The translations under genes were made by a program, and so were the position numbers. DNA of 64,000 bases from Pseudalkalibacillus sp. SCS-8 (GTDB lineage: Bacteria; Bacillota; Bacilli; Bacillales; Fictibacillaceae). Positions 16,101 through 52,150 of this stretch are shown here, one piece after another (the stretch's first letter is position 1; every line of letters begins with the position of its first letter). The stretch spans positions 3,410,001 to 3,474,000 of the forward strand of contig NZ_CP143541.1 in NCBI RefSeq assembly GCF_040126055.1. The letters are read 5' to 3'. The notes below the pieces were generated by a model. The model made no database searches, was not told the origin of the DNA, and worked only from the letters and a program-made list of their open reading frames with translations.

Positions 16101-17150
16101 TTATTTTTCAGTCAGCACTTGGTTGCCAGCTGCTTTTAAAAGCCGGTTCATGAGCGCTTCTCCTATTCCTTCGATTGGATACATTTCGGCGAGGATCACA
16201 TCAACATCAGTGTCATCGAACGCACGAAGCTGATGATACAGCTTTTGTGCAATCCCTTCGACATGACGAACAGAACCGAGTCTCTTCACTTCATCTGCGG
16301 AAATCTCGTCTGCGAGTTCATCACTGACGAGGATCCCTACCTTCTTTCCGTCCGCTCGATACTGGTCAACACATGACTGGAAGAACGCCATCGATCCGTC
16401 CACTAACAATAAGGGTGCATCCGGTGCGTAGTGCGTATATTTCATTCCAGGAGATTTCGGGATTTGTTCTTGTTCAAACAATGCGTTATCCCAGACGACA
16501 TGGTCAACGACGGACTCAAGCTGTTGTTTGGATACGCCACCTGGTCTGAGAATCGTCACTTGTTCGCCAATCACCTCGACGACCGTCGATTCAAGCCCGA
16601 CACCCGTCGTTCCGGCATCGATGATTCCTTTTATACGACCATTCAAATCTTTATAGACATGCTCACCGATCGTCGGGCTAGGTTTACCCGACCGGTTCGC
16701 ACTCGGTGCTGCAATCGGTACCCCAGCTGCTTCAATTAAAGCCAACGCGACAGGATGGTCCGGCATGCGTATCCCCACACTCGTCAGGCCAGCTGTCGTA
16801 CGGTCTGCAATGGATTCTTTTTTCGGTAAAATAATCGTAAGCGGCCCTGGCCAGAATGCATCCATCAAGCGCTTAGCGGTTTCCGACCATGAAGCGGCAG
16901 CCTGCTCGAGCTGTTTTTCATTTGCGATATGCACAATCAGTGGATTGTCGCTCGGGCGACCTTTTGCTTTGAAAATTTTTTCGATTGCAGAATTTGAGCA
17001 CGCATTGGCTCCAAGTCCATAAACGGTCTCGGTAGGAAAAGCAATGACCTCTCCTTCTCTTATCCACATCGCCGCCTCTTGTATTGCCGGATGCTCGGTT
17101 AAGTTATCCACATTTTCCACATTCCATTTTGTCGTTATCAACTGTTCCAT
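16101..17150 (-). CDS. ywlC: L-threonylcarbamoyladenylate synthase (Sua5/TsaC)
   Basis: This 349-residue enzyme makes threonylcarbamoyl-AMP for the t6A37 modification of tRNAs. The N-terminal YrdC domain (about 15-205) has GEVIAFPTETVYGLG, the SDNPLIVHI segment and APSANRSGKPSPT; the C-terminal Sua5 domain follows SPGMKYTHYAP near residue 235. The ATG at 17148-17150 is preferred; GGAG lies about 11 nt upstream. The 5' end of the gene is unusually rich in TTATCCACA boxes (separate entry). Confidence 0.94.
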   Translation of the reverse strand: MEQLITTKWNVENVDNLTEHPAIQEAAMWIREGEVIAFPTETVYGLGANACSNSAIEKIFKAKGRPSDNPLIVHIANEKQLEQAAASWSETAKRLMDAFWPGPLTIILPKKESIADRTTAGLTSVGIRMPDHPVALALIEAAGVPIAAPSANRSGKPSPTIGEHVYKDLNGRIKGIIDAGTTGVGLESTVVEVIGEQVTILRPGGVSKQQLESVVDHVVWDNALFEQEQIPKSPGMKYTHYAPDAPLLLVDGSMAFFQSCVDQYRADGKKVGILVSDELADEISADEVKRLGSVRHVEGIAQKLYHQLRAFDDTDVDVILAEMYPIEGIGEALMNRLLKAAGNQVLTEK

Positions 17151-17242
17151 GTGGGTAAATACTCCTTTAAACGATAGATTATACCGGGCTTTCCACATTT
17201 TACCCACAAGCTTTCCGGATTTGTGGATATCGTTGTGGATAA
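17060..17242. promoter_or_regulatory. DnaA-box cluster at the 5' end of ywlC
   Basis: Perfect TTATCCACA boxes occur at 17060-17068 and 17104-17112 on the plus strand and at 17234-17242 on the minus strand. One-mismatch boxes lie at 17113-17121 (TTTTCCACA), 17150-17158 (minus, TTACCCACA), 17200-17208 (TTACCCACA) and 17222-17230 (minus). That is seven boxes in 183 bp, spanning the ywlC start and upstream gap. I recall DnaA-binding clusters near ywlC in B. subtilis, from memory only. Confidence 0.8.
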
Positions 17243-17288
17243 CGTTGTGTACAAGAGGAATCTGACAATGCTTTCACCGGACTACTCC

Positions 17289-17732
17289 CTAGCCCATCTC
17301 GACTAAATGGCGTTTCATAATAGCGATTTGGTCGCGATCATATTGTTTGAGATGGGGGGTGTTAAGGAGCTCTTCCGGCACTTGGTCATACGGGACTTCA
17401 GTAAACCCGAGTGCGTAGAAGATGGAGGTCACGCGCGTCAACAGGTAGACCGTCTGGACACCTTGATGATCGGCGAGCCGTATGATTGCTTTCAGTAAGC
17501 GAAGCAATAACTCCTCTGAGGAATACTCTTTATCTAACACAAGCGATCGTATGAGCCCAACATCACCATTCCGTTCAAGTCCGACTGTTCCTGCCATTTT
17601 CTTTTTGTCCGTTTCCAATATGATGAACGTCTGGATGCACTGTTCGATTCCTTCACTTGATAACCCGGCCTGCGCTACAAATTGTTTAATAGATGGGGCA
17701 TCGTTCGTTTCTGCGGGACGAAACGATAACAT
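17289..17732 (-). CDS. ywlB: GNAT family N-acetyltransferase YwlB
   Basis: This 147-residue protein has the GNAT fold: MLSFRPAETNDAPSIKQFV at the start, the MAGTVGLERNGDVGLIRSLVLD strand pair at about 46-67, and FYALGFTEVPYDQVPEELL near the C-terminus. The layout resembles the ArgA-like acetyltransferase branch, but the substrate is unknown. It corresponds to ywlB between spoIIR and ywlC in B. subtilis. Confidence 0.85.
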   Translation of the reverse strand: MLSFRPAETNDAPSIKQFVAQAGLSSEGIEQCIQTFIILETDKKKMAGTVGLERNGDVGLIRSLVLDKEYSSEELLLRLLKAIIRLADHQGVQTVYLLTRVTSIFYALGFTEVPYDQVPEELLNTPHLKQYDRDQIAIMKRHLVEMG

Positions 17733-51779: not shown

Positions 51780-52150
51780 AATGCCTTTTATTTGTCTCCA
51801 TTTAGCGGTTTTTGCATTTTCAGGGTTGAAACACCCTTTATTTACCCTCATTTTGGAGTTTTTGCGTTTTCAGGGCATTGAAACACCGCTTCTTTACCCT
51901 TATTTTGCGGTTTTTGCGTTTTCAGGGCATTGAAACACCTTTTCTTTACCCTCATTTTGCGGTTTTTGCGTTTTCAGGGCATTGAAACACCTTTTCTTTA
52001 CCCTCATTCTGCGGTTTTTGCGTTTTCAGGGCATTGAAACACCTTTTCTTTACCCTCATTTTGCGGTTTTCGCATTTTCAGAGCATTGAAACACCTTTTC
52101 TTCCCTCATTTTGCGGTTTTCGCATTTTCAGGGCATTGAAACACCACTTC
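51780..52150. repeat. 52-bp tandem array, 7 units
   Basis: CAGGGCATTG recurs at 51871, 51923, 51975 and 52027 with exact 52-bp steps, with variant units at 51821, 52079 and 52129. Each unit has GCGTTTTCAGGG or GCATTTTCAGGG, and AGGG/CCCT arms. It fills the gap between the argS terminator and the xapX-type gene. Confidence 0.95.

Follow-up and report, generated by a model that had tools for sequence, protein, structure and literature searches.

A conserved cluster of predicted DnaA-binding sites at the start of ywlC in Pseudalkalibacillus and other Bacilli

Introduction

DnaA is the protein that starts the copying of bacterial chromosomes. In Pseudalkalibacillus sp. SCS-8, a dense group of DnaA boxes lies away from the origin, at the beginning of ywlC, the gene for an L-threonylcarbamoyladenylate synthase. 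This raises the question of whether such a cluster serves the gene, the control of replication, or both. The window analyzed here (the whole stretch of 64,000 nucleotides, positions 3,410,001-3,474,000 of NZ_CP143541.1) is part of a single 3,623,697-bp contig. As dnaA spans the contig junction, the ywlC cluster lies about 196 kb from dnaA.

A precedent exists in Bacillus subtilis, as described in the available parts of the papers cited here. The interval given as "upstream of ywlC; downstream of ywlB" is region 6, one of eight regions bound by DnaA with high affinity in vitro, and it holds nine sites with a Kd of 0.25 uM for ATP-DnaA and 0.45 uM for ADP-DnaA (PMC4447404). Other high-affinity regions outside oriC are gcp/ydiF, trmE/jag, yqeG/sda, yydA and ywcI/vpr (PMC4447404). 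B. subtilis ywlC is repressed by DnaA (PMC4447404, PMC12112137, PMC8203912), and expression from a PywlC-lacZ fusion drops as DnaA rises (PMC12112137, PMC8203912). Joint removal of six clusters outside oriC leads to early initiation (Okumura 2012, cited in PMC5295017 and PMC13220808). An initial sequence-only reading of the window had pointed to a DnaA-binding region near ywlC in B. subtilis, and this region is real (PMC4447404, PMC8203912, PMC12112137); the two roles that it proposed, regulation of ywlC and titration of DnaA, both have published support in that species (PMC4447404, PMC12112137, PMC5295017, PMC13220808).

DnaA boxes at the start of ywlC

Scanning the window for TTATCCACA with at most one mismatch recovers seven DnaA boxes within 183 bp (17060-17242), three perfect and four with one mismatch, exactly the seven claimed in the sequence-only reading (Table 1). 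They overlap the ywlC start and the upstream gap, as claimed there: three boxes are wholly contained in the coding sequence, a fourth takes in the initial A of the ATG, and the other three are in the 138 bp that separate ywlC from the GNAT gene. The looser pattern TTWTNCACA, with one mismatch, gives two weaker sites (Table 1) and also matches 17198-17206, overlapping the box at 17200. The whole window has 22 boxes with at most one mismatch, against a shuffle mean of 14.3, and seven of these fall within the 183 bp. Dinucleotide shuffling of the window, repeated 200 times, never packed more than three boxes into 200 bp, a number reached in two shuffles, versus the seven observed.

The gene name ywlC, given in the same reading, is correct: the frame at 16101-17150 on the minus strand matches TIGR00057, and the longer open reading frame (16101-17207) matches the Pfam domains Sua5_yciO_yrdC and Sua5_C. 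The start at 17150 is a prediction, chosen from the AAAGGAG motif and from homologs. The candidate TATAAT is absent from the promoter consensus scan because its -35 is poor. Beyond the GNAT gene lie spoIIR, prmC and prfA-like genes.

Table 1. Features around the start of ywlC in window coordinates; offsets refer to the coding strand of ywlC.
Feature	Position	Strand	Evidence or remark
ywlC / tsaC2, L-threonylcarbamoyladenylate synthase, 349 aa	16101..17150	-	NCBIfam TIGR00057 match
DnaA box TTATCCACA, perfect, in ywlC codons	17060..17068	+	+82; at most one mismatch in 8/8 same-genus genomes
DnaA box TTATCCACA, perfect, in ywlC codons	17104..17112	+	+38; perfect in 8/8 same-genus genomes
DnaA box TTTTCCACA, one mismatch, in ywlC codons	17113..17121	+	+29; position used by 34/54 box-bearing family representatives
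DnaA box TTACCCACA, one mismatch, between RBS and first base of ATG	17150..17158	-	8/8 same-genus genomes; atypical of other families
Candidate ribosome-binding site (RBS) AAAGGAG of ywlC	17162..17168	-	sequence
Candidate -10 element TATAAT of ywlC	17178..17183	-	sequence; paired -35 TGGGTA (17201-17206) poor
Weaker box-like site CTTTCCACA	17189..17197	+	TTWTNCACA, one mismatch
DnaA box TTACCCACA, one mismatch, upstream, overlapping the -35 position paired with TATAAT	17200..17208	+	5/8 same-genus genomes
DnaA box ATATCCACA, one mismatch, upstream	17222..17230	-	7/8 same-genus genomes
DnaA box TTATCCACA, perfect, upstream	17234..17242	-	at most one mismatch in 8/8 same-genus genomes
Weaker box-like site TTGTACACA	17246..17254	-	TTWTNCACA, one mismatch
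GNAT acetyltransferase in ywlB position, upstream of ywlC	17289..17732	-	identified only as GNAT protein there

Relation to known DnaA-box loci

Judged from its sequence, the window cluster is the counterpart of the ywlC/ywlB cluster of B. subtilis. It lies at ywlC and downstream of the ywlB counterpart, which is the GNAT protein in that position, and it has several boxes within a few hundred base pairs outside oriC (7 in 183 bp). Both loci carry an array of the TTATNCACA type at the same gene and place, with nine sites in 300 bp in B. subtilis and seven to nine here, depending on the definition, and loci of the B. subtilis group (e.g. B. mojavensis) have the same upstream and intragenic boxes. 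The box positions differ in detail, however, and the genus of the window adds a box over the ribosome-binding site and start codon in 8/8 genomes. DnaA binding was measured at the B. subtilis region, whereas the cluster here is known from sequence alone. As a type of element it is known already, since a DnaA-binding region at ywlC has been published in B. subtilis. We regard it as a real and functional-looking cluster with a predicted DnaA function.

In E. coli, datA and DARS are likewise loci of DnaA boxes outside oriC that influence initiation (PMC5295017). B. subtilis is described in the available part of PMC13220808 as a species without IHF, datA and DARS. The E. coli datA locus depends on IHF and stimulates DnaA to hydrolyze its bound ATP, and no such activity is implied at the ywlC cluster.

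Conservation across the class

Relatives were scored for four or more boxes no farther than 350 bp from the ywlC start. Such a cluster occurs at 86/90 loci of the order, a set composed of 30 of the 34 family genomes and 60 loci chosen from the best-scoring places in 249 genomes, with 7 of the 47 families of the order outside it. It is also present at 78/80 named GTDB loci (some genomes are shared with the order set), including those of Brevibacillus borstelensis, Ammoniphilus resinae and two Listeria species, and at 23/40 further loci of the class, again chosen from best-scoring places; this sampling favors genomes with a YwlC resembling the query. The reversed consensus reached three or more matches at none of these 210 locus records (0/90, 0/80 and 0/40). 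With one representative per family, at least four boxes were found at the ywlC start in 54 of the 67 sampled families of the class. Conservation of the boxes in relatives, which had been suggested as a check on the original observation, thus proved positive by every one of these counts.

Sua5/TsaC genes elsewhere in the phylum gave a different picture: four or more boxes were present in 0/20 regions and three in 1/20, these regions being taken from the best-scoring places out of 118 genomes with a match. A cluster at Sua5/TsaC genes in the wider phylum is unsupported by the regions fetched.

All four exceptions among the 90 order loci belong to one family (f37), where ywlC is without the cluster in 4/4 genomes. 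In the one representative inspected, the gene upstream of ywlC is divergent and presumably, as judged by eye, ohr-like; the promoter side of ywlC seems to have been replaced by this gene. Another observation in this family is that genome G069 has nine boxes behind gcp, yet its ywlC lacks the cluster. The two exceptions among the named loci are an Oscillospiraceae MAG and Pontibacillus salipaludis, which has no box within 350 bp of its ywlC start while most of its relatives have the cluster. Outside the order, ywlC lacks the cluster in 12 of 27 sampled families. Together, the absences in f37, in P. salipaludis and in these families indicate that the cluster is dispensable in some lineages. Where the gene upstream varies, the cluster is mostly kept, next to ywlB-like (58/61), spoIIR-like (13/16) and prmC-like (3/3) genes, the last two group names being assigned by eye against the proteins of the window.

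Other clusters in the same genome

Genome-wide there are 44 perfect boxes, and oriC has 7 and 5 boxes in 200 bp on the two sides of dnaA. Counterparts of the B. subtilis gcp/ydiF, yqeG/sda, rlmH (yydA) and trmE/jag clusters are present: eight boxes in 200 bp between gcp/tsaD and an ABC-F gene, five between yqeG and sda, four and then two more upstream of rlmH, and three between trmE and jag. Three of these were followed across the order, in 30 loci each: three or more boxes are present 3' of gcp at 25 loci, 5' of rlmH at 28 and 5' of trmE at 22, against 0/30 in each case for the reversed consensus.

A further dense cluster follows rlmD, in the space from its 3' end to a yfhD-like gene (genome ~527,219-527,700; 1720-1832 and 2179-2196 of stretch L017), with seven boxes and then two more. 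It is outside the set of eight high-affinity regions in B. subtilis, for which the available part of PMC4447404 gives only a weak region inside rlmCD, with three sites and a Kd of 7.5 uM. Three or more boxes are present 3' of rlmD in 29/30 family loci; as an order-wide feature this cluster was rejected, with 6/30 order-sample loci, two of them from the family itself. The list of clusters, at least six outside oriC, is non-exhaustive because it was seeded from perfect boxes among the matches listed; the other genome stretches with perfect boxes (L010, L012, L016, L018 and L019) have no clump of more than two.

Arrangement around the promoter and proposed function

In the 54 box-bearing families the boxes form two peaks, at about -180 to -60 and at +20 to +60, and in 37 of these families no box starts in -45..+19. 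The typical layout is one array upstream and one inside the gene, separated by a box-poor stretch that covers the promoter, ribosome-binding site and start. The genus of the window departs from this pattern, since a box at -8 occupies the spacer from ribosome-binding site to ATG in 8/8 genomes. Neighboring boxes upstream are often 12, 21 or 22 bp apart, and box-pair distances are in helical phase, with a coherence of 0.40 at 10.5 bp compared with 0.15 for the largest of 500 jittered sets, a figure that shared ancestry inflates.

The best sigma-A-like predicted promoter overlaps a box in 15/54 families, below the 23.5 expected under random placement, and simple occlusion of the promoter by boxes was rejected as a general mechanism. 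Several families have their -35 about 11-13 bp beyond the closest box. The window itself has a box (17200) that does cover the poor -35. The low overlap favors flanking arrays, with DnaA on both sides, over a simple covering of promoter hexamers.

From the sequence pattern and the B. subtilis precedent, it is very probable that cooperative DnaA binding represses ywlC and also titrates DnaA. Binding would be cooperative and would involve the boxes upstream of the ywlC promoter as well as those in the opening codons of the gene, and enough bound DnaA would lower transcription of ywlC. DnaA held at the cluster would be withheld from oriC, adding to the brake on replication initiation. By analogy with B. 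subtilis, we infer that binding and repression would also take place in this organism, where the boxes, their conservation, the constraint inside codons and their placement to either side of promoter and start are all observed.

It is possible, though we consider it rather unlikely, that the cluster is a DnaA sink and nothing else, its location at ywlC being historical and any repression of ywlC an inconsequential side effect. Such a sink would fit the early initiation seen when six clusters are deleted together in B. subtilis (PMC5295017, PMC13220808, available parts). It would also fit the gcp/ydiF cluster, which is bordered by the 3' ends of two genes and therefore has no evident promoter to serve, and which keeps at least three boxes 3' of gcp in 25/30 loci. 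A sink alone agrees poorly with the fixed places of the boxes relative to the ywlC start (+29 in 34, +59 in 27 and +41 in 18 of the 54 families), with their position in codons, a costly place for a sink, with the retention of the cluster despite a different upstream gene, and with boxes that flank promoter and start. Thus, repression of ywlC combined with titration remains our preferred reading, and we infer that gene regulation, not titration alone, kept the cluster at ywlC.

Constraint inside codons

For the 54 box-bearing representatives, synonymous codons were redrawn from each gene's own usage in 300 draws. Between +12 and +120 there are 69 perfect boxes versus 8.3 expected (largest draw 17), and 119 boxes with at most one mismatch versus 47.8 expected (largest draw 60). 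Further into the gene, 43 boxes are observed versus 12.3 expected from +120 to +270, and 12 versus 2.9 from +270 to +399 (largest draw 11); this excess, weaker and continuing, suggests that the null may be somewhat too low. The 13 other family representatives have no in-codon boxes, versus 0.4 expected, so that picking box-bearing sequences hardly alters the totals. In the eight genomes of the window's genus, third codon positions are invariant at 6/9 sites in boxes versus 5/26 outside, and upstream columns at 28/35 in boxes versus 21/70 outside. The protein had earlier been said to tolerate boxes in its codons. The boxes do lie in codons, but "tolerates" is too weak a word for 69 perfect boxes where 8.3 are expected: where boxes lie, the choice among synonymous codons seems to be constrained beyond what the protein requires.

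These counts also bear on the idea that the in-codon boxes are a by-product of a conserved N-terminal peptide (VDN/K ... YPQ) under selection at the protein level, which we judge highly improbable. The amino acids do favor box-like words, since redrawn codons still give the 47.8 boxes mentioned above in the 54 sequences, but this falls short of the 119 observed, and for perfect boxes the peptide would yield 8.3 where there are 69. Moreover, in the window the boxes at 17104-17121 come before the enzyme-domain matches, which begin at residue 20 for TIGR00057 and at about residue 30 for Pfam; this argument is qualified by the closest solved structure, which aligns already from residue 13. Families that lack the cluster have no boxes of this kind. 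Almost no credence is due to a chance or compositional cluster without a DnaA role in this organism: the reversed, uncomplemented consensus did reach a clump of four (one mismatch allowed) in 200 bp once elsewhere in the window, at 51935, but the shuffles, the conservation with no control loci and the synonymous constraint all argue against it.

Implications

Relative to the literature found, what is new is how deeply the cluster is conserved and that it overlaps codons: no publication on either was found for the ywlC cluster, in a search that did not cover Okumura 2012 and Ishikawa 2007, which may discuss conservation.

Five of the six clusters identified outside oriC, in a list of at least six, adjoin RNA-modification genes, namely ywlC (tsaC2), gcp (tsaD), trmE (mnmE), rlmH and rlmD; only yqeG/sda has no such gene adjoining. 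Two of these genes, tsaC2 and tsaD, encode the two universal t6A enzymes. A preference of Bacilli clusters for RNA-modification genes would link DnaA, as initiator of replication, to the modification of tRNA and rRNA; it was noticed post hoc and we hold it to be doubtful.

B. subtilis strains with ywlC deleted show a stringent-response signature, and for suppressor strains an elevated (p)ppGpp level was reported (PMC4634966). The authors discuss slower replication, and DnaA goes unmentioned in the available part of their paper (PMC4634966). Since loss of ywlC induces the stringent response, repression of ywlC by DnaA could form a loop back to replication, possibly from DnaA to YwlC, t6A, (p)ppGpp and replication.

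Here, a cluster studied in one species is found across much of a bacterial class, and some of its boxes are carried by codons of an essential-pathway enzyme. Because boxes lie in codons, a clean test is at hand, in which synonymous recoding removes the intragenic boxes and leaves the protein unchanged. Lineages without the ywlC cluster, at least one of which keeps the gcp cluster (f37, G069), are natural experiments on gene regulation versus titration.
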